IMG/VR virus record: IMGVR_UViG_3300036774_000032
Span: 1 to 60,640 of that record
Length of the DNA stretch: 60,640 bases
Strand: one strand, 5' to 3'
From: a virus
Shown in pieces: positions 22,355-60,009 of this stretch. The notes beneath the pieces are model-generated. The model saw nothing but the letters and a program-made list of their open reading frames with translations, was not told the origin of the DNA and searched no databases. Each line of letters starts with the position of its first letter. Within the stretch, counting starts at the first letter, position 1. A program made the translations under genes and the position numbers.

Positions 22355-22608
22355 CAGGGTTTCCCCTGCTTGTCATCTAGGCGGGATGCTGTGATGGCTC
22401 GGCTGCTGTCAGCGTCATCGCCCTGCGTGCTACCCATCCCGCCTGCCGGTGCTGACACTGAGGTCAGCAGGCCATTGAGTCCGTTGTCATGCTTCGAATG
22501 CTGGGTAATTGCATCGCATTTAAGGCATCGCCAACCTGCTGGACGTGCAATCAAACTAGGGACCATTTGCTTACACAAGGGACAAGAAATCAATTCTTCC
22601 ATGGTCAC
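22354..22608 (-). CDS. Zinc-ribbon protein, 84 aa
   Basis: It starts either at GTG 22608, overlapping the portal stop, or at ATG 22602. An N-terminal zinc ribbon is clear: CPLCKQM followed by WRCLKCDAITQH, two C-x2-C knuckles 17-18 residues apart. The rest is polar and disordered (Gly, Ser, Asp). It sits directly after the portal gene in the order of transcription. Zinc ribbons of this size often bind nucleic acid or proteins, but the role here is unknown. Confidence 0.55.
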   Translation of the reverse strand: MTMEELISCPLCKQMVPSLIARPAGWRCLKCDAITQHSKHDNGLNGLLTSVSAPAGGMGSTQGDDADSSRAITASRLDDKQGKP

Positions 22609-29776: not shown

Positions 29777-30027
29777 TGAAACCACCTCGGCATCCGAAAC
29801 GCCCCCCGCCAGTCGCCCCGTCGCAGCTTCCCGAGGCGTAGGACGACAGCGCAAATGATGTCGGCACATGCCATGATTGCCAGCGCGACCCAGACGACGA
29901 CACTCCCGATCGCCGTCAGGAGGACGCGGTCGACCCAGCCGAATTCGGGCTCAGGGGCCGCCTTCCACGCATGCTGACCGGCACGTCCAGCGCCTTGATG
30001 TCCTCGAAACCCGCGTCGATGAACCAT
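29773..30027 (-). CDS. TM protein overlapping the methyltransferase 3' end, 84 aa
   Basis: The ATG at 30027 has a GAGGTG site six bases upstream, and the frame overlaps the methyltransferase by 112 bases in another phase. One transmembrane helix (LLTAIGSVVVWVALAIMACADIICAVV) is followed by a basic tail (LGKLRRGDWRGAFRMPRWF). The ATGA overlap with the GT4 gene makes it a real link in the chain. Alternatively it could be reached by frameshifting from the methyltransferase as a membrane anchor. Confidence 0.45.
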   Translation of the reverse strand: MVHRRGFRGHQGAGRAGQHAWKAAPEPEFGWVDRVLLTAIGSVVVWVALAIMACADIICAVVLRLGKLRRGDWRGAFRMPRWFQ

Positions 30028-36602: not shown

Positions 36603-37219
36603 GGTGTTTTCCTCCAGTTCTTTCCGTTCACGATTGCCCACACGTTCGCTTGAGTTATAGAGTACCGAGCGGCAAGTTGGCGTTGAGTAATTCCTCCAGA
36701 CAAGTATAGGGTGCGAATTTCTTCCGCCTGGATTTCCGTGATCTTCGCCTTCCAGTGCTGTTCTCCCCTACGGCGTGTTGCAGGAACGGTCTTTGCTCCA
36801 GTAGCCTGACGCCCTTTTCGGAAGCAATCTCTGTTGTTGTCTTCTGCTGTGCCAAGAAACAGATGCGCGGGATTTACACAAGCTGGGGTATCGCACTTAT
36901 GGAGAACGCACAGTGTTCGGTCAAATTCACCATGCTCTAGAAAATACGCCACACGTGGCGCCCGACCGAGACCGCGCCACCGAGCCCTTCCGTATCCTCT
37001 CCTGTCCACGGCTCCTGTCCAAATCCAACAGGACTCCGTGAGATTAACCTGAGACCAGAATCGCGCCTTAAACTTCTCGAATTCCGCCTCTTCCGCTGAC
37101 GCGATCAGAACCGTCTCTCCCCTAAATGTTCGGCAATAATGCTGGTTGCATAACCCCTTCGCTTTCATTTCCAATTTGCATCCGGGGACACGGCAGGCGC
37201 GGTCTTCTATTCGTCGCAT
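36545..37219 (-). CDS. HNH homing endonuclease with C-terminal HTH
   Basis: A 224-residue mobile nuclease. The N-terminus has a Cys knuckle (ACRVPGC ... GLCNQHYCR). The HNH core spans CVLHKCDTPACVNPAHLFLGT, with His107, Asn116 and His119 as likely active residues. The C-terminal HTH is EIRTLYLSGGITQRQLAARYS. The end of this gene overlaps the SbcC start by 58 bases, which is how homing genes often settle beside a conserved target. Its HTH resembles that of the HNH gene at 38771-39453. Confidence 0.85.
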   Translation of the reverse strand: MRRIEDRACRVPGCKLEMKAKGLCNQHYCRTFRGETVLIASAEEAEFEKFKARFWSQVNLTESCWIWTGAVDRRGYGRARWRGLGRAPRVAYFLEHGEFDRTLCVLHKCDTPACVNPAHLFLGTAEDNNRDCFRKGRQATGAKTVPATRRRGEQHWKAKITEIQAEEIRTLYLSGGITQRQLAARYSITQANVWAIVNGKNWRKTPCALCASPAITSAPSVTLT

Positions 37220-37228
37220 CGTGATCCT

Positions 37229-37603
37229 CTACACTAGGAGCCGTCGAGGAAGTCCAAACTCCGCGAGTTGTTCATCTGCCTCTTGTACCGAAGACACCCG
37301 AAGGGTGATGGCGCCATCCCCTTTCGCGCGACTCAGCCACTCCCTCTGCTGCTGGTCCCGCTTGGGATTCGTCCTGGCGCCCATCTTTTTTACTTCGCAT
37401 TCCAGATGTCTTCCTGTTCCGATCTGCCATCCCGTGAGGTCTGCGGCACCGGGCTCGGAAAACCGCACGAACTGCAGACTCGCGTTATACGCCCCGCCGA
37501 CGTTTCGACGCTGGACTCGGAAACCGCGAAGCTCAAGGTAACTCTTCACGGCGCGTACGATCTCCGTCTCGCTGATGGCGGGGAGGCGCTGGAGCTTGGT
37601 CAT
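37229..37603 (-). CDS. VRR-NUC domain nuclease, 124 aa
   Basis: The ATG at 37603 overlaps the SbcD stop (ATGA); the longer frame upstream is the shadow of SbcD. The core has EPGAADLTGW, HLECEVKKMGARTNPKRDQQQREW and later GAITLRVSSV, matching the D-ExK-Q pattern of VRR-NUC (PD-(D/E)xK) enzymes. Phage members are thought to resolve DNA junctions or trim replication intermediates. It is linked to SbcC and SbcD in a recombination cluster. Confidence 0.8.
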   Translation of the reverse strand: MTKLQRLPAISETEIVRAVKSYLELRGFRVQRRNVGGAYNASLQFVRFSEPGAADLTGWQIGTGRHLECEVKKMGARTNPKRDQQQREWLSRAKGDGAITLRVSSVQEADEQLAEFGLPRRLLV

Positions 37604-38760
37604 TTCCCAGCAATCTCCGCATGTAGAGCCGTCAGCTCCCCCAGGTCCTCGGTCCTCGAATTCGCCGCGTGCCACTCCGCGAGTGCTCTGGTCGGCGTGA
37701 TGTCCCCTTTCATCTCCTCGGCCCGGGCCCGGGTGGTGCGGGTGATCTCCAGTTGCTCGGTGAAGGTGGGAATCTCCCGCCACTTCGCCAGGGTCGGCTG
37801 GAGGGCGTCGTGCTCTTCCTGGCTCAGTTCGCCCTTGACGCGAAGAATCGGCACGCGGTTGTAGTCGAGACCGTTCGGCCAGTATTCTTCTGACTCGACA
37901 GTGTCGCGGATCTCCTCTGGCGTTAAAGTTATGAACCTCCTCGCTGGCATCGGGAAGTCGGTCTTGGAGAAGGTTTCACCGTCCAGCTCTACGCACGCCC
38001 AGGAGGGCTCATTTCCCTCTTCCCCGTGGTTGAGCCTGTCCAGACTCCCAGAGTAGTACGCCCGCGGCCCCACCTGTTGCGCCGCATGGAAGTCGCCCAA
38101 CGCCACGTACTCCCACCCCTCCAGGTCCTCGGCCGTCAAACTGATATGCTCCTGGCCTGCGAGCATGTTCTCGTTCATCTTCGCGCCGACGATCGGGAGG
38201 TGCGCCACGAGGACGGACGGAAGGTGCGGATCGCATTGCGCGCGCAATCCGCGGACGATGGCGCGGAGCTTCTCACTGACCAGGGCGTTGACTCCTTCGG
38301 GGGAGAGACCCTGATACTCGTCCCGGGCGAGGAGGCTGGACTTTGACGGGAAGGGAAGGGCGGCAATCTCCAGATCAGGCCAGTGAATCACGGTCGGACT
38401 CTCCAGGTACGAGACGTTCACGATCTCCGCGAGGATCGCCACGGGAGACGGGGCTCCACTTACCGGCATGTCATGGTTGCCGTGGATGAGGACGACAAGC
38501 ATCATCTCCTTCGCCAGTCTCCGGATCTCCTCCTGCGCGAAGACGATCTCCGCCGGCCCGGGCTTCGGCGTGTCGAAGATGTCCCCCGCGATGATGGCGA
38601 CCTCGCATTCCTGTGCGATGGCGCCGTCCACGAAGGCCTTGACGACGCGCTGCTGATCCTTCCAACGAATGTTGACTCCGTTCTCGTCCCGCACGATCTT
38701 CCCGGCGCAGGCGGCGTTGGATGATAGGTGCCAATCGGCTGTGTGGCAAATCCTTACCAT
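37600..38760 (-). CDS. sbcD: SbcD/Mre11-like metallophosphoesterase
   Basis: A 386-residue protein with the conserved phosphoesterase blocks: HTADWHLS at the N-terminus, IIAGDIFDTPKP near 57, IHGNHDMP at about 94, VLVAHLPIVG, and GDFHAAQQVG as the last block (a GDxH variant of GxH). These ligate two metals for exo- and endonuclease activity. It pairs with the SbcC-like ATPase encoded after the VRR-NUC and HNH genes. Likely roles are DNA-end processing during recombination or host DNA takeover. Confidence 0.9.
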   Translation of the reverse strand: MVRICHTADWHLSSNAACAGKIVRDENGVNIRWKDQQRVVKAFVDGAIAQECEVAIIAGDIFDTPKPGPAEIVFAQEEIRRLAKEMMLVVLIHGNHDMPVSGAPSPVAILAEIVNVSYLESPTVIHWPDLEIAALPFPSKSSLLARDEYQGLSPEGVNALVSEKLRAIVRGLRAQCDPHLPSVLVAHLPIVGAKMNENMLAGQEHISLTAEDLEGWEYVALGDFHAAQQVGPRAYYSGSLDRLNHGEEGNEPSWACVELDGETFSKTDFPMPARRFITLTPEEIRDTVESEEYWPNGLDYNRVPILRVKGELSQEEHDALQPTLAKWREIPTFTEQLEITRTTRARAEEMKGDITPTRALAEWHAANSRTEDLGELTALHAEIAGK

Positions 38761-45294: not shown

Positions 45295-45951
45295 TTACGC
45301 GCCGCCGCGTCGAATGGGAATGCATGCCTCGCCCTGGTGCGCAAGCAGGTATGCCATGTCTTTCCGGCTAACAAAGCAATCCCCCGCCTTCCCCCACGAT
45401 GGCCCCCACGAGTTCGCCAGGCGATAGAATCCGCTCTTGACGTTGAATCCGTTGCAGAGGATCGCATGGCCGCCGGCCACGGCGCCCGTCGGATTCACGA
45501 TCCCGTTCAGGTCGGGCGTCATCATGTCCTGATACCAGTTGATGCCGAGGACGGCGGGCCCGTGCCAGCCCACAGCGAGACACAAATCACGTTCCGAGAA
45601 GGCCCACCGAAATTCCGGATACCACCCCAGCTCCGCTGCCGCCTTGATGCCCGCCAAAACACTCGTCCCGTCGTAGTTGTGGCCCGGCCACTGGTCGAGG
45701 TCCTGGGCGCGCCGGTAAATCTTGTCCGCCGTGGAGGGCGTGACGTTGGGCACCTTCACCGGACGCGCACTTCCCTCCTGAGCGATGGAGTAGCCGACAC
45801 ACCGCGGGGTGGCGCCTTGGTCGAGCCGCACGCCGCAGGCCCAGGTATAGGACCGTGGGACCGTGCCCTTGGGAATCAGCGTGCGGATCGGGTAGGCCCG
45901 ACTGCGCTCGTCGAATTCAATGCGTCGGCCGAACATGATTGGCTTTTTCAT
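45295..45951 (-). CDS. Papain-family (C1) cysteine peptidase, candidate lysis enzyme
   Basis: A 218-residue protein with the full papain-type site: Gln45 and Cys51 in DQGATPRCVGYS, His162 in GGHAILCNGF, and Asn180 in LANSWGPSWG. The ribosome site AGAGGAGATTCCCC supports the ATG at 45951. There is no signal peptide or cell-wall-binding domain visible. It occupies the place of an endolysin, just before the holin-like gene. Papain folds are known in some phage tail or lysis peptidases, so it may cleave peptidoglycan cross-links or host proteins. Confidence 0.75.
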   Translation of the reverse strand: MKKPIMFGRRIEFDERSRAYPIRTLIPKGTVPRSYTWACGVRLDQGATPRCVGYSIAQEGSARPVKVPNVTPSTADKIYRRAQDLDQWPGHNYDGTSVLAGIKAAAELGWYPEFRWAFSERDLCLAVGWHGPAVLGINWYQDMMTPDLNGIVNPTGAVAGGHAILCNGFNVKSGFYRLANSWGPSWGKAGDCFVSRKDMAYLLAHQGEACIPIRRGGA

Positions 45952-46141
45952 TGGGGAATCTCCTCTGGTTCGGTTGTTGGATTAGGAGCAGATCGGAGCA
46001 GATTGTGCAGAACGGGAGGCAGTCCTGCGGACAGTAACTCTCCACCGGGCAGAATGGCACCAGGGCCGCCTCCATCTCCACAACCTGCAACGGATCGAGG
46101 ATGGTTGCTTTTCGCTCAGAACGAGGTAGAATAGCAGTCAT
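45917..46141 (-). CDS. Cys-rich small protein, 74 aa
   Basis: The ATG at 46141 has a strong AAGGGAGG site. The product (MTAILPRSERKATILDPLQV) has a Cys cluster, FCPVESYCPQDCLPFCTIC, which could bind zinc, and a basic end. It overlaps the peptidase gene by 35 bases. A plus-strand frame starts from the same CATG. The minus-strand frame is preferred because of its site and the strand of all neighbours. Confidence 0.5.
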   Translation of the reverse strand: MTAILPRSERKATILDPLQVVEMEAALVPFCPVESYCPQDCLPFCTICSDLLLIQQPNQRRFPNEKANHVRPTH

Positions 46142-46343
46142 GGCACGCCTCCCTTCTCCCCGCCGACCCCCGCCGTTCCCCTTTGTCTGGGTGCCTCCGG
46201 AGACTGCGGTCCGCCCGGCCCGCACGGTCCGGATCCGCACAGCGGTCTGGGTGCTCCTCATCGCGGCCCTCCTTGCCTGGTGGGCGTGGCCCATGGAACC
46301 GGATCGCACATTCGATACCGTCGACATCTCCGAGTGGGAGTAA
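46140..46343 (+). CDS. Possible plus-strand membrane protein, 67 aa
   Basis: This would be the only plus-strand gene. It exactly fills the 200-base gap between the polyvalent gene stop and the lysis operon. It has a proline-rich N-terminus, one strongly hydrophobic helix (TAVWVLLIAALLAWWAW) and an acidic tail. The ribosome site is poorly spaced (GAGGT about 13 bases upstream), so it may be a chance open frame. Confidence 0.3.
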   Translation: MARLPSPRRPPPFPFVWVPPETAVRPARTVRIRTAVWVLLIAALLAWWAWPMEPDRTFDTVDISEWE

Positions 46344-49300
46344 TCACTTCCGACCCCGCATCTGCCGCGGGGGCGTCTCCCGTTCCCCGATAAACCGCAA
46401 GACATCGGTCGCCAATTTGATCTTCGCCTCTTGGACCGTGTCGATCTTCTGCTGGCGCTCCTCGGGCGTGAGGTTCGGCGCATTCCGGATACTGTTCTGC
46501 TGCTGGCCCAGTTTGCTCATCTCCCGGGCCGCGTTCTCGAGCGACTTGGCCCGCTGCGCCTCCGGTCGGTTCTCTTGGATGTAGGCTGGCACCTCGCCCG
46601 CGCGTCCCGCTTCCTTGCTCATCTTCTTCGCGGTTCCCATGACTTCCCTCGACTTGGTCAGCGCATCGTAGAAGTCATTGATCGCCTGCGACTGGCCGGA
46701 GGGCGTGCGAGCGACGAAGCCGCCGACGATGGGCAGGTCAGCCGCCCCCTTGGCCGTCTTTGGACTCACGGATCCGCCGAGGGCTTCAAGGGCAACGTCC
46801 GAGAGCTTCACCAGTTCCCGGCCGAGTCCTCCTGTCATGCCTTCGACGAGGTGTTGTGTCTTCAACGGCGAGGCGAGCTGGCCGAGGAGCGGGACATCTC
46901 GCACGCCGCGAAGCATCCTGGAGGTCTTCTTATACGTTTCCGGCGTGTAGGCCGTGTACTGCTCCTCCGGCGCGAGCTTCTCCAGGAAGTCGGGGACAAT
47001 CGTCCGGTCGCGGAAGCTGTCATAGTTCGCGGCGTTCTCCCACAGCGGCACGATCCCCGAGACGCGGAAGGGGATGCTGAACCCCTGCGCGATCGACTTC
47101 CCGATCCGGTTCAGGGCCTCGGGGTGCTTGCTGGCCATCTTATCGAGCAGGATCTCGGCCAGCGTCCCAAACACCTGACCCCAAACGAACGGCTTCGGGA
47201 GAGGCACGATATAGTGGGTCCGCTCGTAGTCGGCGCGCTCCTTGGGCGACATCTTCTCCCAGGTCGCCGTGTCGATGGTTCCGTTGATCGGGATATTCCA
47301 GAAGTACACCCGTTCCCAATCTGGCAGGTCGCGGATGCGCGGGTCGTCCTTCGTCATGTACCAGAGGGCGGTAGAGATCGCCGTAATAACCATACCGCGG
47401 AGCAAGGTCTTGATTGGCCGGTCTTTCCAGGTCCGGAAGAACTTCCCGACAGCATTCACACCCGGGGCGAAGAACGGGACGGCCTGATTCACCACACTGG
47501 CGATCCGTCCCTGCTTGCGGAAGTCGAGCGTGGCCTCGGCGCCGCCCATGATCCCGGCCTGCTCCATCGCGCCCCGCGGGCTCATCCCTTCGGAGAGTGC
47601 CGATTCCCGGGCCCGCTCGAACTGTCCAAGGCGGGTCGCTTCCTCTCCGACGTGGGCGATGTAGTTCACGGTCGCCAGCGGATGTCGGGCCGCGAACAGA
47701 ATGCGCTTGGCGACGGTGGGATGCTTCATCAACTCGGCCATCGCCATGCGAACGGCGTCCTCGTTCATCGTGGCGTAGAGTCCGCCCTGCGCTCCGCCGG
47801 AGGCCAGGTAGCGCTTATACTCCGGTCCGCGCCGCATGACCTCCCTGATCGCCCAGGCCGTATCCGTGGGACGGTAGCCTCCGACCGACTGAACGAAGGC
47901 ATCCCACTGGTCGCGGAAGAGGTTATTGACGATCCACTTCGGGTTGGTCGTCACGCCGTACCGGAGCAGCGCCGTGAACGGCTTGAACATCGCGGCCAGG
48001 AAGTCCTTGGGCAATTCGCCGAGGGCGTTCAGGTACTCGTACACGTCGGGGTGGACGCGGAGGTACATCCGCTTGCCGTCGATCCAGGTGGCGACGGTGT
48101 TCGGGCCGGATTCCTTAACCTGCTCAAAGAGCATCCCCTTGCCCTCGGATTGCTGCTCGATGGCATAGAGCCGCCTGACGATCTCATTGCGCCACACGTC
48201 TCGAATGGCCTCACCCGTCCTCCGATAGATCACTTCCAACGGAGAGAGGATGTCCTCTGGTGATCCGCGATACCGCTTCAGTCGTTGCGGGGGCGCCGTG
48301 AGCTGTCGACCACGCCCGCGCAAATAGGGGAAGCCAGTCACGTCCTTAACCTTCTCGATCGGCGCGAAGTGCGGCCACGCTCCCGTGATGGCCTCATACG
48401 TTTCGGCGCTCATCAGCCCGGCGTCTCGTCGATACTGCTGGATCGCATCTTGGAAATCGTAGAGTCGCTCTGCGGCGTCGGCGAACGTTGGATACTTTGC
48501 TTCGGCTTCCCGGATCGCCTCACGCACCACCGCGGCCGTCACGCCGGATTTGCTTTCCCGGTCCGCAATCTCCTTGGTCTTTTGCATTTGCTCAAGGGCG
48601 GCCATGGCGGACGCGGCTTCATCTGCGGGGACTTCCTCCCCAGCCTGGCGCTTCGCCATGATGTCGTCGATGATTCCCTGGAGGACCCGCGCGGCCTTAT
48701 CGGCGTGCTTGAAGACGTCGTCGAGGCGACGTGCGGCCAGATAGCCGTCGAAGGCGGCAAGGTCTTGGTGGACGGGCTTCAGGATCTCCAAGAGCCCGGG
48801 CCCGGTCCGCTCGGCATCGGTTCCGTAGACGAGCGGCCCGTCCTGTAGGACGGTATCTACTACCGCGTCGACGTGGCGGAACATCCGAGCTGCGATGTAG
48901 GCCGACTGATCGGGCGACAGCTCGCGTCCCTCGACCATGGCCTGCTCGATGTCCCGGGCGATGATGTCCCGGTCTTCCCAATTCGCTACGAGTTTCCGCC
49001 AACGATCTTTCAGGGAGATCCGCGGAGCCTCGGCCCCAGAGGGGGCAATCCTTGAGAGCACCTTGGCAAGAGCGGGTTGCTCACGCCACATCTGGAGCCG
49101 ATTGCGCGCCGCCCCCATCGCGTCGAGGACGTCTGGCTCATACCGCCGCATGGCAGCCTCGAACGGCTCTAGGAAACCAGGAACCTTCTGCTCCAGGAGG
49201 TCGGGATTCTCAACGTACAGTCTGGAGAATTCCGCCAGCCCCTCGGCCAGATACCCGGACGCAGGCTTTCCGCGCCCGCGGTAGAGGTCGCGTCCCATCC

Positions 49301-52300
49301 CTTCTAGCTTCGCTTGCGCCTCGGTCGGTATAGACAGCCTCGGAATGACGGGGTCGAGGAGCTTCTTCTGAATCAAATGCCCGATCTCGTGGGCCAGGGC
49401 CTCCACGTCCGTCATGTTCTGGAGGCGGAAGACCTCCGGACGTCGGATGAAGGCTCCTCGGAGACTTCGCCGCGGCGTTCCCTGCCGAACCACCCGAGTC
49501 GACTCCTCGAGGCCACGGATGATGTCTGTCCGCTTGACGATGTCTGCCTCGTCGGCTGGGGAGGGCGAGCGGAAATTCGGCTGGGACGGGTCGGGCTGGC
49601 CCTGTGGCATGCCCTCGATTTCCGGGGCTGCGGCGGTCCCGCGCTCGACCGTCTGCTGCTTCGCGGGGAATCGTTGCAGGAACCGCCCCATGTTCTCGGG
49701 TTTGACGTGGAAGAAGTTGCCAGCGGGGGAGTAGGACGCGCCAGCCGGGGTGAGCTGGTCCCGGTCCGCCATCCGCGCGCCGTCGACCGTGATGAGTCCG
49801 TCGCGACGCTTGCGGAGGACATAGCCGCCCTTCCCTTCCAAGGGAATACGGTCTCCGGCGTTGAGGGCTTCAAGGACGGCCTCGGGCGTGTCGAGATTCT
49901 TGGTGATCGTCTTCCCGAACCGCTGGGCGATCGGGGAGATGGCGCCGTGGCGGATCTCCAGGCCGGAGATTTGCTCATTGGGCGATTGGAACGTCACGTA
50001 GCGGCGGACAGGAGCCGTTATGTTCGGATTCGACGATTGCGGAAGGTATGGCGCGATCTGCGTCATGTGGGGCGTGATAATGCCCTGGAGAATCCCGAAC
50101 TGCTGCCCGTGATCGTCCTTCACCTCGAACAACGTGAGGTCCGACCGCAGATCGGTTGTCCGAAGGACGTTCCCGCGGTAAGTCTTTGTCCGTTGCGCTG
50201 CCGAGGTCTCCCGCTCATCTTCCTCCTGGGCGGCGATGGCCTGCTCACGGTTGGCCCAGAAAGTGTCAAACGCTTGGTTGGCTGCGTCGGGGTGCATAAA
50301 CTGGAGGTCGAGCAGGAAGTCCCGCAACTCCGCGGCCTGCGGGATACTGCGCGTGTTCATTTCCGGATGATTCGGGTCGCGGAACTTTGACGAGAGGAAC
50401 TGTTCTTGAATCTCGACAGGTAAATCACGGTAGGCCACGCGCATGGCGTAGGTGTCCAGCGATCCCCCAAGTTCGAAGTCTGCCAGCTTGTCGTTGCTGG
50501 CAGATTCGGCCGATCCTTTGGAGAGCGCCCCCAGGTTCCGCATGCGGTTGGCGATCGTGGCGAGGAATTTCCGCTCACCGGAGAGCCCGGTCGAGAGGGC
50601 CGTGATCTTCGGCCCGGAGAGTTGACCCGATCGGTCGACGCGCCCCATCTCCTGCTTGAACGTCGTCGCGCTCCACTCGTAGTCGGTCTCGATGAAGTTG
50701 CGCCTCCCCTCGGCGCCCCCCGGGGTGCGGGTGACGTGGTGCAGGCTGATTCCGGTCTTGCCTGCGCCAGAGATGAAGGCGACCTTGCGCTTTCCCTCCT
50801 GGAATTCGCGGATCATCCGCTCGCGGTTTTTTGCCAGTACGTCTCCGGTGACAAGCGCCACGTTCTCTCGGCCGAACGCATCCAGTACCTTCTCGACCGG
50901 GCTCGGCACCGTCCGGATCTGCTCCCATTTCTCCAGGAGCTCGGCACGGGCCACCAAGGCTTCGGGGATTTCCTCGTCAACGACGATCTCGCCGGTGTCC
51001 GAATCCACCTCTCGCAGGCGGTCGTTGATCTGGTTGATCGCGGCCGGGATCGGCCCCTCCTGGAGTTTTCCCTCCTTCGTATTGATAACCGAAATCACCG
51101 GCTGCTCGCCGCGCGCCAGGGACGCCTTCGCCTCTGCGATGGCGTGATCGAGCCGGTAGTCGAACATCCGGCGCTTGGCTTCCATCTGGAAGAACGACCG
51201 CGGGCCGAAGCCTCGGATGGTCTTGTCGAAGGGGGCGAATTTCGACCAGGCCTGTGAAATGTCACGGATGAGGTTGGAAACCTGCTCGTATTCCTGGATC
51301 TGCTCTGGGTTGAGGAGGTTCGTCTGGACGTCGAATTCAACACCGGATCGCCAGAGGTCGACCGAGTCGTATTTCCCTTTCATCGCCAGTTCGCGCATAA
51401 TCTGCTCTTGCTCGGCTGGCGTGATGAAACTGGTGAACACGTCCCGGCGGGCGCGGCGACCTCCCCGACCTGGCTGCTGTGCGGTGACGCCAATCTCTCC
51501 GGAGTCGGAGCCCATCGACGGAACCTCTGGCGTCACCGTCCCGCCTAGTTCCTCGATCTTGCCGGTCAGAGCGCTAATCGCCTGCTCGTAGCGGTCGACC
51601 TGAGTCTCTCGACTGATGTAGGGGGCTCCGGGGTCAGAGAACCCGCGCCGGCTGAATTCCCAGATCGCGTCTTCTCCCCATCCCGCCTTCTTCGCTACCT
51701 CTTCAAAGCGGGTCTGGAGTCGTTTGAATTCTTCGGCCAGTTGCGCCGGGCTCGTGGCGCTCTCGACGGCCTGCCCGGTGACGCGCGCCTTGTAGTCAGC
51801 AAACCCACCCGGCGCCCACTCCCGCAGGCCGATCAGGGCCTCGAGGTCGTCGAAGTCCACGGCAGGCGTGGCAGTCAGGTAGAGGAATTTCCCCTTGCGG
51901 TCGAGGATCTGCCGTTGGATAGCGAGCCAGTTCTTCCCCACGCTGGAATCGTCGATGTTCTTGTAGAGATGGGCCTCATCCCCGACGACCGCATCAGGGC
52001 CAAGTCGCTGGATGGCGTCAGTGAAGGCGGAGAGGTTGTAGCGGTCGATGATGTATACGGACTTATCGACGACCGGAAGGGGTTGGATCTCGCGCCCGGG
52101 CTTCGCCTTGGAATCGGCGTACCGACTCACGTCGATGATTTCATACGGCCAGGGTCCGCCGACATAATCGTTCAACTGCTGCTTCACGTCCTCGATATTG
52201 ACTCGACCTGCGGTCACGTAGAGAATCCGGTTCGCCTGGCCGGTCTCCAGCCATTCCCCCATGACGCCCGCTGCGATACGGGTCTTCCCGACGCCCACGT

Positions 52301-55300
52301 CCGCGGCGCTCAGGAAACCGTGTCCCTGTTCATTCGCCTGGAGTGCCGGGACGATGCCGTAGTCCCATTGCTGGTCAGAGATGGATTTGCGGGCGGCGGC
52401 GGCCGGCAGGAGTTTCCCTTTGGGGTTGTACGTGAGTTCTGGCAGTCGGGCCCCAGCGAGGGACCGCGTCTTGACGATCAGTCGAGGGTGGGGGGAGTTT
52501 CCAGGGCTAGAGCGGAGTGGAGCAGGCGTAAAGATTCCACTACGTCGTGCGGCGTCAAACTCGGACTGGTCTGCGTAGCTGTACCGGAGGTCTTCCCCCG
52601 TCCGAGTGAGAGCAGGTTCCCCAACTCGTGCTTCAGGGTGTCGTACCGTTCCCGCTCCGACAGGATGTGATGGTCCTCCGGATGTTCCCGGGGCCACCAC
52701 ACCGGCACCAGGCTCTCCTGGTCGAAGTCCAGGAGTCCGTTCACCGCCAGTTCCTGCGCCTCCGGTTTCAGGCTGCCGTCCGGGTTCGCCAGGAGCGACA
52801 GGGCCGAGTGTGCTGGGCCGTGGGGCAGGGGCTTCTGGTCTCGGATGGGCGGGGCGTCCGGGGGCCGGTCGGACGGCAGGGACGGCCGCGGGGCGTTCGT
52901 GCGGGACGGCTCCGCCGACACGGGAGTGCGTTCCTCCACCGCTGAGCGGCTCGAGTGCGGCGGCGTACTCCTCCCACGAAGCTGGCGTCGCGCGGATCGG
53001 TTCAGGCGCATCGGGAATCCCCCCTTTATCCACCACGAGGATGACCGATTCTACATCCGTCCCCCTAGTAATATAGGCCCCAGGAGGCGATTTGACAAGG
53101 GCTCGTAATGTGAACCCTTCCCCGGGGGTCTTTTCAAAGCCGCGCTCGACTCCGCCTTGCAGGAACTTCAAAAACGGCGCGTCTTTAAGAATGGTCGTCG
53201 GCATGACGGAGACGATTCGTCCATTCGCAGGCAATTCCCGCATTTCCTTGGTGGTGAATCGCTCGGACCAGTCGACCGGCGTTCCCCAGGTCTGCGGGAT
53301 CGGCTTCCCGTACTTGCCCGTGGTGTATTTGCCCCATGGAGGATTCATCGTGACGACAGTCCCGGTACTGCCCACGCGCAGGGCGTCCTCCTGAGTCACG
53401 TCGTACCCTTGCAATCGGAGGGCTTCCGCGCGCCGGGGGTCAATCTCGTTGGCCTTGATCGGCGTGCCAGGAGGCAACGGCGCGAGGAGGTTTCCGGTTC
53501 CCGCCGTGGGTTCTGTCACGATGTCGCCGGGTTGCAGGTCGAGGGCATAGGCGGCGGCCACGCTGATCGGGAGTGGCGTTGAGAATTGCTGGCGTTGGCT
53601 GACTTCGATGGTGCGGAGTCGATTCGGGATCAGGCTCTCAATACGCTCTGCCTCGCCGATCCTCACACCGAGGGAGGACTCCCGTGGCAGAGAATCGAGG
53701 GCATTCTTCGCCTTCTTATTCAGCGCCACCTCGACCGCATCGAAAATGTCGTCCACGGCGGCTGGGTCTTGGCCGAGGCGTGCGGTGTCCTCGCCGAGTG
53801 TGGCGGCGGCCCGGGCGCGGAGTTCCCTTCCGTCCCTGGCGAAGTTGCGATTGGCGAGGTCCGTCTCGAACGACGCGACGAGTTTCTTCAGGCGGTCGGC
53901 GTGCTCGTAGGGAGATGGCCCCTCCGTTGTCAAGGGGGATTTGGCGATCAAATCTAAGTGATCCTGTATAACTTTCGGTGCATCCCACTCCTCAATCGTT
54001 TTTAGGGCCTCGGAATCTTCTCGGTCCCCACGATAGAATTCCGTCGGTCGACTACCTTCCCGAAACTGGAAGAGGATTCGGGTCAACTCGGCCATTGCCC
54101 GACGTGGTTCTCTCCCATGGAGGGATGTAATCGCTTCTTGGACGTTCTTCGGGACCTCCTCCCAGAGTTTCTCTTGTGCCTTCCAATAATCTCCTGGGGT
54201 GACATTGGCGTCTCGCCTGTGGATGATCTCCTCTTCCAATGCACTCTCTACCCATTTCGGACCATCCCCGCCCTTCGTGGTGATTTCGTCAGATAGTGAT
54301 TTCAGAGACTCCCTATCGTAAAAAATCTCTCGGGTATTCGGATTAACACCAAGCCCGTATCTTAGGGGCGGTTCAGATTTCGGCCATTCGCTAAAGATTC
54401 CCTTGTGTTCCTCTGTGAACCTGTCGATGATCTCATCGGTCTCGGTTCCGATTTCCTCCGCCGGTTTCTCCGCTGCCCGTCCTGGCAGGGGGCGGGGGGA
54501 GGGGGATTCTTCCTTCGTCCCAAATTGCGCGATTTCCTCCTGCGTCAGAAACTCCGTCCGCCCGTCCTTGTAAAGCAGCTCCGGGCCGAGAATGCCTTTG
54601 CCGAATCCCTGGCGGCCAGGAATGAGGCGAACCGGCTGCGTCAGTCGCATCCCACGCTCGAAGATGACCCGCGCCCCGTTCGCGTCCACGTAGACCGTTG
54701 ACCCATTTGGATTCGTGCCGAATTTCGTCAGGCCTGGGCGGTCGGGCTCTGGGGCCGGGGCTGGTGCGGCTTCCGCCTTCTCCTTGAATCCCATCCCCGC
54801 CAACCGGTCCACAATCCCCTTCAGTGCCCCTACTGACAGCCGATTCATCGGCGGCGGATCAGGCCGATTGCCGGTGACGTAGGAGAGCCATTCCGTTGCG
54901 TACTCTCGGAGGGGCAGGCTCGTAATCGACCGGATATAGGTCGTCGCGTTCGTGATCGCGGGGACCTTGTCGGCTTCAGTGAATCCGCCAGGAGGGGCGT
55001 TCTCCATGGGGGAGGGCTTCGGGGTCGTCCCCGGCTTTCCCCATCCCCCTGCCGACTCGACGTGCGCCAAGACGGCCTCGTCGGAATACTGCTGACCAGT
55101 GGATGCTTCCAGGTCAGATCGCAGGCGCTCGAATTGTTCTCCGCCGGGCTGGATCGGGGAGGGTTTCGGCTTCCTTCCTCGCAAGGTCCTCGGCGGCTTC
55201 ACCGGTTCCGGCCTCGGCCGTCCCACGCCCTGCGGATGCAGTTCGGTCTCGCCTTGCCACTTCGCCAACGTATCCCGCAGCAGATCGGCCTCGGCGGAAA

Positions 55301-57551
55301 TGTCCTCCTTGACCGCCTGATCCGCTGGCCCCATCTCGCGCTGATACTGCTCGGCGCTGGAAAGAAGATCCTGAGCCCGGGCGACGAGGTCGGTGGTGTC
55401 GGTGTCCTCCTCGTCGATGTTGAAACCGCTCTTGAGGTTGTATTCGATCTTCGGGGTCGTCTCGCGGATCTGCGTAGCGAGGAGATTTCCCTCTTCCGCA
55501 GTCGGCGGGATCAGCGGGGCCTGTTCGCCACGAGGGACCAAGACCCGGTCGATGTCATCGACGGTGACGGGGGCTGGGGCCTGACGCTCCGCAACAACCT
55601 CCTGCGCCCTCGCCTCCGCTCCCGCGGGCGGCGTAACCTGTACCGTCCCCCCTTCCGGTTTCACCTTCTCCGCCGCTGCCGTGACGGCCGGCGGGACCGG
55701 GGTCGGGCTGACGACGGTCTGGATCTCCTGGCCGGCAGGCCCCCGCGTCTCGACCAGGGTGGCCGGTTCTCCTGGCTTTGGCTTCTCCTTCACGCCATAC
55801 CCGAGGATCTCTCCCGCCTTCCCACTCTCCACTGCGTCCTGGATCTGCTCCGGCGTCTCCTTGACCTGCGCGGGATCGTAGACCACGGTCCCTTGCGAGG
55901 TCTGGACCGTCTGCATCGTCGGCGGGACCAGGACGGCGGGCTTCTTCCCTTCCGCAAGCGCCTCGGTCTGCGCGACAATGGTCTCGGGTCGCTCCGGGAC
56001 GGTGGCAGGGGAGGTAGGTTTGGCCTCTACCGGGGGCGTGGCTAGGGTGGTGGCCGGTGGAGCCTCGGGTTGAACCTGGGGCGCTGTGGGGGCTCTGGTA
56101 GGGGCGGCTCCAGCCTTCTCAGGAATAGCCTGGAGAGATGGAGGAATTCCCCCGCCAAGCCTAACCTCCTGTGGAAGGTCTGCCTCGCTTATCCCGAAAC
56201 TGGCGAGTGTTCGCTCATACCCTACCCTCGCCGCCTCCCGTTCCGCTGGCGTCGCGGCGCGCTCGGCGTTGGATTTCAGTTTATCGAGGAGCGAAAGTAG
56301 CTGTTGAGCTTCTGGTGTTTGCCACGCCGGAGGGACCGTTGGCTGAGGAGCGTTCTTCTCAATCGTCTCTCTGAATTTCCGGGCCATCCGGATCGCGCCA
56401 GCTTCCGGCCCTGCCATTAGCGGGGCTGTCGCAATGGCAATCTTTCCCAACTCTTCGGCCGTGTTAGCACTGATCGCCCCGGATTGGATAAGCGCATTGG
56501 TCAACGCTGTGAATGGGACGGAGAACGGGAGGGCAGCCAATTCTCCGAGACGGGTTCCGATTTCCTTGGTCCCGCCCTGCGATGCGGGGGCGAACGCCTG
56601 AGTGACCGGAGCTTTGGCTCCGAGGACTGCACCCGCTGCGAATCTTTGGAGCGGTGCTCCTTCTGCCTGGAGCTGTTCGAGTCGCTGTCCTCCGGCCTCA
56701 TATTCTGTGCCTTCCGGTCCAAGGGTAGGAAGGGTTGTAACCTCAGTTGGTCCTGGCGGAGTTGTCTCGAATTTGGAGAGCAGTCTTCTTACGCTTTGCT
56801 CTCTCGTCATTGGCATACGCCCAGAGATGTCAGGGAGTGTGCGTTGGATTGGTGGTGGAGGCATCGTTGGGAGGTTAAGAGTATCCGAAGTTGGAACAAC
56901 CGGCGTCACCATCGGCGCAGGCACCACGACCGGCGCAGGCGTTCTCCCCGGCATCGCTCTAGTAACGATCGCCTCGTTGGCGCGATTCTCCAGGCTCGGC
57001 GGGAGATCGCCCCCCGGGCCCTCCAGACTGATCGGCGGCGGGGCAGGCTGCGGCAGTGGCATGGACATCACGGCGTCGATGTCGTCGACCGTGACGCCCT
57101 TCCGGCCATTCCCGTTGCCCTTCCCGGTGACTTTCTTGACGTAGGCCTGGGTCTCGGGGTAGGGAGGGATCCCGCCATACTGCCCGACGGCGCCCTCGCC
57201 AGCGTTGTAGGCTGCGGCCACGAGTTCAGGGTTGTCCGGGTAAAGTCCCGTCAGGTATTTGAGGTGCTTGGTCCCGGCCGTGAGGTTTTCCAGGGGATTG
57301 AACGGGTCCTTGACCCCATACTGCGCGGCCGTCTTCGGCATGAGCTGCATGAGCCCCTGCGCGCCCTTGGGAGACACGGCCTGGGGGTCGTAATTCGATT
57401 CCGCCTGGACGACGGACCGGACGAGGTTCGGGTCGACCCCGTGGGTCGCGGCGACCTCGTCGATCAGGGCGTCAATATCGGGAGAGGAGCCTCCGGCCTT
57501 CCGGGTCGGCGTGCCGAGAAGACTGTCGATGTCCTGAACGGTGACGGGCAT
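46344..57551 (-). CDS. Giant polyvalent virion protein (3735 aa): transglycosylase, DarB-like MTase-helicase, peptidase, LPD38-like
   Basis: Parts in order: residues 25-145 a lytic transglycosylase domain (Glu51 in VVQAESNYDP, then GLMQLMP and AAYNAGEG); 150-1300 a mostly disordered Pro-rich linker; 1320-1520 an N6-adenine methyltransferase (EPTAGTGN and NPPW at 1403-1406); 1700-2330 a Strawberry-notch/SNF2-like helicase (GVGKT at 1753-1757, DEAH at 1858-1861, MGRVDRSGQ near 2304); a metallopeptidase motif HEIGH at 2721-2725; coiled coil to about 3030; then an LPD38-like region to the end. The MTase-helicase order equals that of P1 DarB, an injected antirestriction factor. Such giant multi-domain proteins are thought to be packaged and delivered with the DNA. 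The VTVxDID peptide recurs at residues 3, 153 and 662. Confidence 0.85.
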   Translation of the reverse strand: MPVTVQDIDSLLGTPTRKAGGSSPDIDALIDEVAATHGVDPNLVRSVVQAESNYDPQAVSPKGAQGLMQLMPKTAAQYGVKDPFNPLENLTAGTKHLKYLTGLYPDNPELVAAAYNAGEGAVGQYGGIPPYPETQAYVKKVTGKGNGNGRKGVTVDDIDAVMSMPLPQPAPPPISLEGPGGDLPPSLENRANEAIVTRAMPGRTPAPVVVPAPMVTPVVPTSDTLNLPTMPPPPIQRTLPDISGRMPMTREQSVRRLLSKFETTPPGPTEVTTLPTLGPEGTEYEAGGQRLEQLQAEGAPLQRFAAGAVLGAKAPVTQAFAPASQGGTKEIGTRLGELAALPFSVPFTALTNALIQSGAISANTAEELGKIAIATAPLMAGPEAGAIRMARKFRETIEKNAPQPTVPPAWQTPEAQQLLSLLDKLKSNAERAATPAEREAARVGYERTLASFGISEADLPQEVRLGGGIPPSLQAIPEKAGAAPTRAPTAPQVQPEAPPATTLATPPVEAKPTSPATVPERPETIVAQTEALAEGKKPAVLVPPTMQTVQTSQGTVVYDPAQVKETPEQIQDAVESGKAGEILGYGVKEKPKPGEPATLVETRGPAGQEIQTVVSPTPVPPAVTAAAEKVKPEGGTVQVTPPAGAEARAQEVVAERQAPAPVTVDDIDRVLVPRGEQAPLIPPTAEEGNLLATQIRETTPKIEYNLKSGFNIDEEDTDTTDLVARAQDLLSSAEQYQREMGPADQAVKEDISAEADLLRDTLAKWQGETELHPQGVGRPRPEPVKPPRTLRGRKPKPSPIQPGGEQFERLRSDLEASTGQQYSDEAVLAHVESAGGWGKPGTTPKPSPMENAPPGGFTEADKVPAITNATTYIRSITSLPLREYATEWLSYVTGNRPDPPPMNRLSVGALKGIVDRLAGMGFKEKAEAAPAPAPEPDRPGLTKFGTNPNGSTVYVDANGARVIFERGMRLTQPVRLIPGRQGFGKGILGPELLYKDGRTEFLTQEEIAQFGTKEESPSPRPLPGRAAEKPAEEIGTETDEIIDRFTEEHKGIFSEWPKSEPPLRYGLGVNPNTREIFYDRESLKSLSDEITTKGGDGPKWVESALEEEIIHRRDANVTPGDYWKAQEKLWEEVPKNVQEAITSLHGREPRRAMAELTRILFQFREGSRPTEFYRGDREDSEALKTIEEWDAPKVIQDHLDLIAKSPLTTEGPSPYEHADRLKKLVASFETDLANRNFARDGRELRARAAATLGEDTARLGQDPAAVDDIFDAVEVALNKKAKNALDSLPRESSLGVRIGEAERIESLIPNRLRTIEVSQRQQFSTPLPISVAAAYALDLQPGDIVTEPTAGTGNLLAPLPPGTPIKANEIDPRRAEALRLQGYDVTQEDALRVGSTGTVVTMNPPWGKYTTGKYGKPIPQTWGTPVDWSERFTTKEMRELPANGRIVSVMPTTILKDAPFLKFLQGGVERGFEKTPGEGFTLRALVKSPPGAYITRGTDVESVILVVDKGGIPDAPEPIRATPASWEEYAAALEPLSGGGTHSRVGGAVPHERPAAVPAVRPAPGRPAHPRPEAPAPRPSTLGPVAPGEPGRQPETGGAGTGGERTPGLRPGEPGAGVVAPGTSGGPSHPVGAGTVRHPEARVGEPALTRTGEDLRYSYADQSEFDAARRSGIFTPAPLRSSPGNSPHPRLIVKTRSLAGARLPELTYNPKGKLLPAAAARKSISDQQWDYGIVPALQANEQGHGFLSAADVGVGKTRIAAGVMGEWLETGQANRILYVTAGRVNIEDVKQQLNDYVGGPWPYEIIDVSRYADSKAKPGREIQPLPVVDKSVYIIDRYNLSAFTDAIQRLGPDAVVGDEAHLYKNIDDSSVGKNWLAIQRQILDRKGKFLYLTATPAVDFDDLEALIGLREWAPGGFADYKARVTGQAVESATSPAQLAEEFKRLQTRFEEVAKKAGWGEDAIWEFSRRGFSDPGAPYISRETQVDRYEQAISALTGKIEELGGTVTPEVPSMGSDSGEIGVTAQQPGRGGRRARRDVFTSFITPAEQEQIMRELAMKGKYDSVDLWRSGVEFDVQTNLLNPEQIQEYEQVSNLIRDISQAWSKFAPFDKTIRGFGPRSFFQMEAKRRMFDYRLDHAIAEAKASLARGEQPVISVINTKEGKLQEGPIPAAINQINDRLREVDSDTGEIVVDEEIPEALVARAELLEKWEQIRTVPSPVEKVLDAFGRENVALVTGDVLAKNRERMIREFQEGKRKVAFISGAGKTGISLHHVTRTPGGAEGRRNFIETDYEWSATTFKQEMGRVDRSGQLSGPKITALSTGLSGERKFLATIANRMRNLGALSKGSAESASNDKLADFELGGSLDTYAMRVAYRDLPVEIQEQFLSSKFRDPNHPEMNTRSIPQAAELRDFLLDLQFMHPDAANQAFDTFWANREQAIAAQEEDERETSAAQRTKTYRGNVLRTTDLRSDLTLFEVKDDHGQQFGILQGIITPHMTQIAPYLPQSSNPNITAPVRRYVTFQSPNEQISGLEIRHGAISPIAQRFGKTITKNLDTPEAVLEALNAGDRIPLEGKGGYVLRKRRDGLITVDGARMADRDQLTPAGASYSPAGNFFHVKPENMGRFLQRFPAKQQTVERGTAAAPEIEGMPQGQPDPSQPNFRSPSPADEADIVKRTDIIRGLEESTRVVRQGTPRRSLRGAFIRRPEVFRLQNMTDVEALAHEIGHLIQKKLLDPVIPRLSIPTEAQAKLEGMGRDLYRGRGKPASGYLAEGLAEFSRLYVENPDLLEQKVPGFLEPFEAAMRRYEPDVLDAMGAARNRLQMWREQPALAKVLSRIAPSGAEAPRISLKDRWRKLVANWEDRDIIARDIEQAMVEGRELSPDQSAYIAARMFRHVDAVVDTVLQDGPLVYGTDAERTGPGLLEILKPVHQDLAAFDGYLAARRLDDVFKHADKAARVLQGIIDDIMAKRQAGEEVPADEAASAMAALEQMQKTKEIADRESKSGVTAAVVREAIREAEAKYPTFADAAERLYDFQDAIQQYRRDAGLMSAETYEAITGAWPHFAPIEKVKDVTGFPYLRGRGRQLTAPPQRLKRYRGSPEDILSPLEVIYRRTGEAIRDVWRNEIVRRLYAIEQQSEGKGMLFEQVKESGPNTVATWIDGKRMYLRVHPDVYEYLNALGELPKDFLAAMFKPFTALLRYGVTTNPKWIVNNLFRDQWDAFVQSVGGYRPTDTAWAIREVMRRGPEYKRYLASGGAQGGLYATMNEDAVRMAMAELMKHPTVAKRILFAARHPLATVNYIAHVGEEATRLGQFERARESALSEGMSPRGAMEQAGIMGGAEATLDFRKQGRIASVVNQAVPFFAPGVNAVGKFFRTWKDRPIKTLLRGMVITAISTALWYMTKDDPRIRDLPDWERVYFWNIPINGTIDTATWEKMSPKERADYERTHYIVPLPKPFVWGQVFGTLAEILLDKMASKHPEALNRIGKSIAQGFSIPFRVSGIVPLWENAANYDSFRDRTIVPDFLEKLAPEEQYTAYTPETYKKTSRMLRGVRDVPLLGQLASPLKTQHLVEGMTGGLGRELVKLSDVALEALGGSVSPKTAKGAADLPIVGGFVARTPSGQSQAINDFYDALTKSREVMGTAKKMSKEAGRAGEVPAYIQENRPEAQRAKSLENAAREMSKLGQQQNSIRNAPNLTPEERQQKIDTVQEAKIKLATDVLRFIGERETPPRQMRGRK

Positions 57552-57552
57552 G

Positions 57553-58938
57553 TCACTCCCCGCGGTTGACGGTGTCCGCTACGCGCTGGCGTTCGCCTGG
57601 GTTGAGTTGCTGCCACGTCTTGTTCGGATAGAGCTTTGCCACGGCGGTCAGATAGCGCTGCCGCTGCTGCTCTGCGGTCGCCGGATCAACGGCTGCAGGC
57701 TGGACGCTTGCCGTCTGCTGGGGCCGTCCAGCTCCTACGTCTCCGGAGGTGTCGCGTCCTGGCATCGGGCGATTGCCCTTCCGGTTCAGGTAATCCGTGA
57801 GGGTCTTGATCGTCCCCTGGATGCTCTTGATCTCCGAATGGTAGAAATCCTTGTCCTCCGGCGTGATGTTCGGGTCGAAACTGGAAAGCTTCTGCTCGTA
57901 ACTGGTCAGCATTGGCCGCAGGGTGTTGATGTGAAGGCGGACCTCCTTCACCGGGACTTCCTTTCCGGCGTCGATCGCGTCGATGATGTTCCCGGCGTTC
58001 TGGACGGCACGCATGTTGTCCCGTCGCATGATCGCCATATCTTCATCGGCCTGTTGCTTCGCAGTCTTTGGCTCAGACGGATTCGTGAAACTCGGCTGGG
58101 TCGCGCCCGGTGGGATGTACGACGCGCCTTTGCCGACCACATGGCCTGTCTGCGGCGTCTGCCTCTCCGGGCGAACGGATTTGCTGAATTTGTCGTACAC
58201 GCCCACCCAATGCTTCCCGCCAGTCGGGTTCTCCTTGATTGCCCCGCCGAGCGCATCGAGGAGAGATACCTCTGGCGAGTTTCCTGCCTCTAATCCGGTT
58301 CGATACCACTTCGCCATGCTCCCGAGGACCTTCCCGGAGTCGTCCGGAGCCTCGGTGAACATCTTGAATACGGCTTTTGTCATATCGTCAGCCATGCCAA
58401 GATTTCCCCGAGTAGCTATTCCAAGAGCCTTGACTGAGAAGGCCCGAGCCTCCTCCGGTGTCATCGCTGGCTTGGCTGTAGCGAAGAGGTTGCCAAGCTC
58501 CTGAAGTCCTGACTTCTGGAGGTTCTCCGATTCCACCGCCTGCGGGGTCCGGAGCCCCAACGCCCCGAAGACCTGGGGACGGTGTTGGACAACGCGGGCG
58601 AGCACGTCCGCGGGAACGGATTGGGATAACTCCGGAAGGGTCTGCGGGGCACGCATCTGTTTCAGGTCGAGGAGATTCTGCCCGGCGAGGTCGGACACGT
58701 CAGTCGGTTCGACTGGCGTCTGTGTCCCCTGGAGAACCGGGACGTTGCCTCCTTGGCTCGCCCGCAGCACGGCGGAGATGTCGTTCGGGAGGGCCTGCTC
58801 CTCCGAGAGTTGCTGCTGTAGGCGCTGCCGTTGGAGGGCCCGGATGGCGGATTCCTCTTGAAAGGCTTTCTGTTGGAGCACCCGCTGGGCCGATTGATTA
58901 TACGCATTCCAAAATGCCGCCCCCGCATCCCCTGGCAT
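57553..58938 (-). CDS. Internal/ejection-type virion protein, 461 aa
   Basis: A Gln-rich helical N-terminus (MPGDAGAAFWNAYNQSAQ, later LQRQRLQQQLSEEQ) leads into helical and Pro-rich regions typical of podovirus ejection proteins. It ends with WQQLNPGERQRVADTVNRGE. The opening PGDAGxxFWxxYN motif is also found in the 107-residue protein upstream. Its stop is one base from the polyvalent protein start, suggesting co-expression and co-packaging. No enzyme motif was found. Confidence 0.6.
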   Translation of the reverse strand: MPGDAGAAFWNAYNQSAQRVLQQKAFQEESAIRALQRQRLQQQLSEEQALPNDISAVLRASQGGNVPVLQGTQTPVEPTDVSDLAGQNLLDLKQMRAPQTLPELSQSVPADVLARVVQHRPQVFGALGLRTPQAVESENLQKSGLQELGNLFATAKPAMTPEEARAFSVKALGIATRGNLGMADDMTKAVFKMFTEAPDDSGKVLGSMAKWYRTGLEAGNSPEVSLLDALGGAIKENPTGGKHWVGVYDKFSKSVRPERQTPQTGHVVGKGASYIPPGATQPSFTNPSEPKTAKQQADEDMAIMRRDNMRAVQNAGNIIDAIDAGKEVPVKEVRLHINTLRPMLTSYEQKLSSFDPNITPEDKDFYHSEIKSIQGTIKTLTDYLNRKGNRPMPGRDTSGDVGAGRPQQTASVQPAAVDPATAEQQRQRYLTAVAKLYPNKTWQQLNPGERQRVADTVNRGE

Positions 58939-58959
58939 GGAGCCACCCCTTTCCGAAGA

Positions 58960-59283
58960 TTAGTACGTGACGACGCTCCCGCCCGAACCGAACATCGTGC
59001 CGAGGTTTTCTCCTCCGCCAGCCCCGGTCCGTTTCAGGGCCGCGGTATTGTAGGAATCCCAAAACGATTTCCCGGCGTCTCCAGGAGAGCGAGTCGCTCC
59101 GTAGGGAAGTCCACCCTGCGAAGGAATCGGCCCAAGCCCTGCGCGTATCTGGGCTAATTGGTTGGCCTGCATCTGCTCCTGTTCCGCCTGTTGCTGTTGC
59201 TGTGCCTGCTCTTGGGCGGCTTGCTGTTGTCGCTGTGCCAAGATCGCAGCCAGGAAGGGATTCATGTCTTGTGGCACGTTCAT
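58960..59283 (-). CDS. Gln-rich internal virion protein, 107 aa
   Basis: A short protein with an Ala/Gln-rich helix (MNPFLAAILAQRQQQAAQEQ) followed by PSQGGLPYGATRSPGDAGKS and FWDSYNTAA. The PGDAGxxFWxxYN motif matches the N-terminus of the next protein. The Gly-rich tail ends GSGGSVVTY. It is a probable internal head or ejection-related component; position and composition are the evidence. Confidence 0.55.
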   Translation of the reverse strand: MNVPQDMNPFLAAILAQRQQQAAQEQAQQQQQAEQEQMQANQLAQIRAGLGPIPSQGGLPYGATRSPGDAGKSFWDSYNTAALKRTGAGGGENLGTMFGSGGSVVTY

Positions 59284-59292
59284 TCTCCTCTC

Positions 59293-60009
59293 TTACATTC
59301 CGCCCAGGCCAGACATTCCGCTCTGCGACGCGAACATCACGCCTTCGTGGAGCTGCTGGCGGAACGCCATGTCGTTGATGTTCTTCATCTGGGCATTCTG
59401 CATCGCAGCCAGATTTTGCGCGTTGTAGACCTGGGCGTTCTGGTTCCGGTAGTTCCCGAGGAGGTCCGTCACCTGGTTCGGCGTTTGAATATCGTTCTGT
59501 TTGAGCGTCTGGGGCACCCAGGAGAGAGGATTCATGGCATAGCCCTGCTGTTCTCCGGCCGTGATCTCTCCGCGGGCTGCCGAGTAGCGCAACTCCTCCG
59601 CCCGTTTCTTGTACTCCGCGAGGGCCTGCTGGCCAGGCGTCGAGTTTTCCCAGCCCGGACCAAGCTGCCGTTGCAGGTTCGCCCGGAGGGTGGACTCCTG
59701 CTCGGTCAGGGACCGCTCCAGCCCCGGATCGACGGGCAATTCTCCGGCGAGCGCCTTCTTGTACCGATCGAGGTACGCCAGGTTCATGTCCTGGGTAGAC
59801 TTCGCCATGTTGGCGACGTAGTCGGCATACGGCTGGCCGGTCAGTTCCTCGAATTTTTTCCGACCGGCCGCTTCGTCTGCCGCGTTTTGTTTGTTGATGG
59901 CGAGGTTCTGTTGAGCCAACTCCAGTTGCGTCTTGTCCAGGTCTTGCTGGGTCTGGCTCTCCGCTGGATACTGCGGTGTGTCGACCTTGGGCGCTTGCCA
60001 GAGACACAT
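59293..60009 (-). CDS. Internal/ejection-type virion protein, 238 aa
   Basis: The protein opens MCLWQAPKVDTPQYPAESQT and is otherwise largely helical and Gln/Asn/Ala-rich (DKTQLELAQQNLAINKQNAADEAAG; NQNAQVYNAQNLAAMQNAQMKNINDMA). The N-terminal Met-Cys and short Pro-rich tract recall small internal proteins of podoviruses. It follows the GNAT-like gene and begins the block of ejection-type genes. Confidence 0.55.
   Translation of the reverse strand: MCLWQAPKVDTPQYPAESQTQQDLDKTQLELAQQNLAINKQNAADEAAGRKKFEELTGQPYADYVANMAKSTQDMNLAYLDRYKKALAGELPVDPGLERSLTEQESTLRANLQRQLGPGWENSTPGQQALAEYKKRAEELRYSAARGEITAGEQQGYAMNPLSWVPQTLKQNDIQTPNQVTDLLGNYRNQNAQVYNAQNLAAMQNAQMKNINDMAFRQQLHEGVMFASQSGMSGLGGM

Follow-up and report, generated by a model that had tools for sequence, protein, structure and literature searches.

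A divergent polyvalent protein with a Strawberry-notch helicase, probably carried in the virion of a short-tailed phage

Judged from its sequence, the 3735-residue product of a single gene in the window (the whole stretch of 60,640 nucleotides that was analysed, IMG/VR record IMGVR_UViG_3300036774_000032) is a polyvalent protein and a divergent member of a class that has already been described in other short-tailed phages. It joins a lytic transglycosylase (SLT), an N6-adenine DNA methyltransferase, a Strawberry-notch helicase, a zincin metallopeptidase and a C-terminal region with LPD38 (Table 1). Such a combination of several unrelated activities in one chain is the mark of the polyvalent proteins as defined by Iyer et al. 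2017, who described a methylase-helicase dyad, zincin and lysozyme domains and LPDs as their parts (PMC5512222). We consider it probable, from these domains and from the known relatives, that the protein is a DarB-like ejection protein, carried in the virion, that opens the wall and protects the entering DNA. What is new here is the presence of a Strawberry-notch helicase in such a setting, together with the high sequence divergence; the protein extends the DarB/Bcep22-like giants by a divergent member of Strawberry-notch type and is not of a new kind.

Table 1. Features of the giant gene, its product and the surrounding genes (positions in the window).
Feature	Residues	Position	Strand	Evidence or remark
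Giant polyvalent protein gene	3735 aa	46344..57551	minus	ORF, translation and coding signal
Repeat copy 1, VTVQDIDSLL	3-12	57516..57545	minus	
Lytic transglycosylase (SLT)	29-127	57171..57467	minus	Pfam SLT, 2.3e-25
Repeat copy 2, VTVDDIDAVM	153-162	57066..57095	minus	
Repeat copy 3, VTVDDIDRVL	662-671	55539..55568	minus	
N6-adenine DNA methyltransferase	1301-1509	53025..53651	minus	PHROGs, profile, AlphaFold model
Helicase, N-terminal ATPase half	1687-1919	51795..52493	minus	Pfam AAA_34, 1.3e-9
Helicase, C-terminal half	2248-2443	50223..50810	minus	Pfam Helicase_C_4, 3.7e-24
Zincin metallopeptidase	about 2690-2830	49062..49484	minus	36-sequence alignment, relatives, predicted structure
Long helical C-terminal region	3000-3724	46380..48554	minus	contains Pfam LPD38 (3404-3608), 1.4e-25
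Papain-like cysteine peptidase		45295-45951	minus	phrog_16701; just downstream of giant
Gln-rich protein upstream of giant	461 aa	57553..58938	minus	probable accompanying ejection protein, by position only
Gln-rich protein upstream of giant	107 aa	58960-59283	minus	
Protein upstream of giant	238 aa	59293..60009	minus	homologues upstream of giant gene in L030 and L032
Portal, SU10-type		22605-24659	same as giant	
Adaptor, SU10-type		5322-6209	same as giant	
Tail-region proteins		980-5322	same as giant	

The gene is one open reading frame of 3735 codons with an ATG start, covers 18.5% of the record and has a strong third-position GC content (0.75); the other frames of the same strand contain 81-93 stops over this stretch and the translation of the plus strand contains many. 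The first-pass annotation had described one uninterrupted gene of nearly a fifth of the genome, and this description stands, with the addition of the strand, which it had omitted and which the search for open reading frames gives as minus. The unusual length of the frame, and the fact that the best matches vary by segment, might point to an assembly or fusion artefact in which separate genes were joined. We rejected this explanation, to which we give a negligible chance, on account of the intact frame without internal stop, the strong coding signal and the closed ORFs of 3100-4667 residues with the same module logic that we found in independent phages.

A domain search of the translation (Pfam, PHROGs, profiles) identified all modules that had been named in the first reading, and the motifs on which that reading was based were all found at the residues given there (Glu51, NPPW at 1403, GVGKT at 1753, DEAH at 1858 and HEIGH at 2721). 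The matches to Pfam (SLT, both helicase halves and LPD38) were all above the curated cut-offs, and the catalytic motifs of all four enzymes proved intact in a motif check. The overall identity to any known protein was low, with roughly 20-30% in conserved stretches, and a nucleotide search found no close relatives in phages.

Besides the catalytic glutamate, the SLT domain has the motifs GLMQLMP and AAYNAGEGAV, and its matches in the PDB are to T7 gp16 and to SLT70 of E. coli. The methyltransferase has the motifs STP, EPTAGTGN and NPPW and is an EcoKI/TaqI-like gamma-class enzyme with TP and NPP motifs, as in the DarB dyad. Methyltransferase-type PHROGs families match at residues 1301-1509 and 1320-1408, a profile built from the giant and 14 viral relatives matches TaqI and the M subunits of EcoKI and EcoR124II in the PDB (about 1e-13 to 1e-15), and an AlphaFold model of this part (pLDDT 75.8) has fold matches to M subunits of type I systems (best 5e-11) and to TaqI. 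Searches of PDB sequences by phmmer with single methylase-helicase segments gave no match, and profiles did better. LPD36, which usually precedes a DarB methylase, gave no Pfam match in residues 900-1300.

In the helicase, the N-terminal half contains, besides GVGKT and DEAH, the motif TATP, and the C-terminal half contains QEMGRVDRSGQ as motif VI. Thus the segments 1320-1520 and 1700-2330 do match methyltransferase and helicase families, and both the DarB-like methylase and the Strawberry-notch helicase that had been proposed were identified, but the helicase (Pfam AAA_34/Helicase_C_4) is not of the usual DarB type. Strawberry-notch versions are found in a few instances among polyvalent proteins (PMC5512222). 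The closest similarity of the helicase-methylase part of the giant is to proteins of plasmids: at 1e-5 this region matched 666 plasmid but only 3 phage records, and pattern scans of viral and genome contigs found no relatives of the segment.

The zinc-peptidase motif also belongs to a real domain. An HExxH motif occurred by chance in 3.4% of shuffles, but residues 2690-2930 match, in BLAST and in alignments, the same region of proteins of the Vibrio phages VvAW1 and vB_ValP_FGH, the Shewanella phage X14 and the Thalassomonas phage BA3. In an alignment of 36 divergent viral proteins the residues H2721, E2722, H2725, E2770, G2771, A2773, E2774, F2775 and R2777 were invariant, so that HEIGH (2721-2725) is accompanied by a second motif, EGLAEF (2770-2775). 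The predicted structure (pLDDT 78.5) shows three strands, then the HExxH helix and then the EGxAEF helix; hence the HExxH, a zinc-binding Glu further along on another helix and a predicted three-stranded sheet are all present, and on these sequence features the HExxH is that of a real zincin (HExxH + EGxAEF). The predicted fold agrees with the polyvalent MPTases described by Iyer et al. 2017 as three strands and two active-site helices (PMC5512222).

The C-terminal region matches phrog_9854 (1.8e-56), has homologues in phages and gave 83 fold matches in BFVD, many of which were named large polyvalent proteins. A phmmer search of PDB sequences with C-terminal segments gave no match and a fold search of the PDB with the whole core gave no significant match, which leaves LPD38 without a solved relative at that level. 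As an alignment of the C-terminus alone was too divergent for scanning, the zincin alignment served as bait, and it found 60 loci in IMG/VR. The LPD38 region, the linkage to which was no part of this selection, was also present in 56 of the 59 viral ORFs with the zincin of the giant, and in these usually begins some 130-190 residues beyond the zincin domain. The modules upstream vary: we found a methylase in 16 of the zincin-bearing ORFs, SLT in L033, L054 and L066, a Strawberry-notch helicase in L041, L058 and L066, and in many zincin-LPD38 ORFs no recognised domain. Over the 60 viral loci, the zincin and LPD38 look, from their sequences, like a constant C-terminal chassis with a swappable N-terminal cargo, and the window protein, given the variable modules before the zincin, represents one way of combining modules from a common stock. 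This pattern makes it testable how phages load and release a multi-enzyme cargo.

Comparison with published proteins showed that the statement, made from the sequence alone, that no described protein has exactly this combination was incorrect. In BcepIL02 gp70 and BcepMigl gp69, profiles detect all modules in the same order (SLT, an NPPF methylase, helicase, HExxH and LPD38), and in the Bcep22-like JC1 gp69 a lytic transglycosylase-like domain (80-192), a methylase (1537-1783), a helicase (to 2868) and LPD38 (4195-4401) have been described (PMC9144972). The Bcep22-like giants (Bcep22 gp75, BcepIL02 gp70, BcepMigl gp69 and JC1 gp69; 4515-4667 aa for three of them) have the module order of the window giant, but their helicase is of the ordinary SNF2/HepA type, the context of their HExxH does not match our zincin profile, and pairwise BLAST finds similarity to the window giant in the SLT domain only, the rest being found by profile. 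Because its helicase, though working alike, is of a different subfamily, we class the giant among the polyvalent proteins rather than as a Bcep22-type member in the strict sense.

Other known proteins share part of the arrangement. In the 3640-aa DarB-like protein of VvAW1, a methylase and a helicase are likewise followed by a homologous zincin (HExxH + EGFAEF) and then by LPD38, but we found no SLT in it, its helicase is SNF2-related and its identity to the window giant is 21% over the shared C-terminus. The 3764-aa DarB-like protein of Serratia phage Parlo, for which transglycosylase, helicase, methyltransferase and acyltransferase domains have been published (PMC6606913), is close in length and similarly combines an N-terminal SLT, a helicase and a methylase in one chain; it differs in that the methylase follows the helicase, LPD39 replaces LPD38 and a GNAT domain is present. 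P1 DarB, a virion protein that protects entering DNA, the role that we propose for the window giant, shares the methylase-helicase pair, but its helicase is of another branch, it is part of the multi-protein Dar system, and the profiles used found no SLT, zincin or LPD38 in it. Among the IMG/VR loci, L058 and L066 each lack one of the five modules: both have the Strawberry-notch helicase, the zincin and LPD38, the former with the methylase and the latter with SLT.

The genomic setting is that of a late virion gene. As its ends form a direct repeat of 23 bp, the record is probably a circularised assembly, in which portal and adaptor are followed by the tail genes and then, across the record ends, by three small genes and the giant. 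Phage-type polyvalent proteins are likewise encoded near late virion genes. Similarly, the LPD38 giant of L032 is preceded by homologues of the 505-aa tail-region protein of the window and of the 238-aa protein, with their order conserved, and in HTVC034P and the related podovirus MW202898 the LPD38 gene comes after that of internal virion protein B and before that of the tail fibre. The 238-aa protein has only a weak match to an unnamed PHROG, and we detected no homologues of the 107-aa and 461-aa proteins, the latter also being without a PHROG match. The 107-aa protein and the adjacent 461-aa protein share a short motif, which lies in a segment of the former (SPGDAGKSFWDSYN) and at the start of the latter (MPGDAGAAFWNAYN). 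We discounted two neighbouring ORFs (58898-60007 and 45917-46483), which are probably out-of-frame shadows.

The best reading of the giant is that it belongs with DarB-like ejection proteins such as Bcep22 gp75, BcepIL02 gp70 and JC1 gp69 and is ejected to open the wall and to protect the DNA. The phage is uncultivated; packaging and ejection are suggested by the relatives, as JC1 gp69 was detected with 51 unique peptides by mass spectrometry of CsCl-purified virions (PMC9144972), and wall cutting, DNA protection and self-processing by what is known of the family. The zincin-LPD38 C-terminus would probably hold the protein in the head or the ejection apparatus, and on infection it would leave together with the DNA or before it. 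The transglycosylase at the N-terminus could then nick the peptidoglycan and so let the DNA through, and in the cytoplasm the adenine methyltransferase may modify or cover the entering phage DNA against restriction, aided by the Strawberry-notch motor tracking along the DNA. Before or after injection, the zincin might cut the chain into working pieces.

That the giant is instead a cytoplasmic, non-virion protein made late, e.g. a self-methylating or replication enzyme, is very unlikely in our view: phage replication modules often contain methylases and helicases, but the N-terminal domain is of a peptidoglycan-cutting type, LPD38 is phage-specific and known only from phage-type polyvalent proteins (PMC5512222), and the gene has a late position and a homologue that is present in JC1 virions. 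Within the ejection reading, the methylase-helicase part could be a DNA-entry motor or a chromatin remodeller that pulls in the incoming genome or strips proteins from it, methylation being secondary. The helicase is indeed a Strawberry-notch SWI2/SNF2-type ATPase, the giant gene of VvAW1 lies near a gene noted as phage DNA transfer protein, and L066, in which we detected the transglycosylase, the helicase, the zincin and LPD38 but no methylase, shows that the motor can be present without one. Nevertheless, in vB_ValP_FGH and X14 we detected a methylase but no helicase, so that the methylase is also kept alone, and the relative whose function has been studied, P1 DarB, gives protection from type I restriction (PMC5512222), for which methylation is the proposed mechanism; we regard the entry-motor role as possible but doubtful. 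The same holds, at about the same tentative level, for the idea that the zincin acts on host proteins after ejection. The best matches of its profile in the PDB, weak as they are (E 0.011-0.17), are secreted zinc endopeptidases that cut other proteins, but its place about 260-310 residues before the LPD38 region, with the variable cargo upstream, is that expected of a processing enzyme, and self-processing is favoured by Iyer et al., who consider P1 DdrB probably self-cleaved, although N4 vRNAP is packaged whole (PMC5512222).

We also found that the motif VTVxDIDxxL/M occurs three times in the giant (expected number 2e-5), with two copies flanking the transglycosylase. Repeats of other short motifs within the first 120 residues were present in 20 of 57 giants, whereas the figures were 1 of 57 in a core control and 15 of 167 among the other large ORFs at these loci (Fisher p about 1e-5); the copies of the window giant itself are too widely spaced to count in this test. 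In P1 DarB, the first 30 residues contain a sequence that targets the protein to the capsid (PMC9024508), which makes packaging tags a fair guess. We tentatively suggest, while thinking it rather less than even, that the phage-specific repeats are virion-targeting or docking tags, which would let varied cargo load on the zincin-LPD38 chassis. Alternatively, the repeats could result from slippage in disordered tails, against which the wide spacing and the synonymous differences of the copies in the window giant argue mildly. In one phage lineage, L033 (9290-9961) and L054 (8306-8923), a gene some 1-2 kb downstream of that for the giant encodes a small protein with an apparent signal peptide and a repeated GFTPLE, the motif that is also repeated in the giants of these phages; if the repeats are tags, this protein might compete for their docking partner.

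Several other genes on the minus strand of the window deserve mention. The papain-like peptidase encoded next to the giant might be another processing enzyme or have a part in lysis. At 16684-17835 we found an O-antigen ligase-like gene (Wzy_C, below cut-off) and at 28799-29869 one for a family 4 glycosyltransferase; both are possibly surface-altering. Finally, at 34344-38760 an HNH endonuclease gene lies between the genes for SbcC-like and SbcD-like nuclease subunits.
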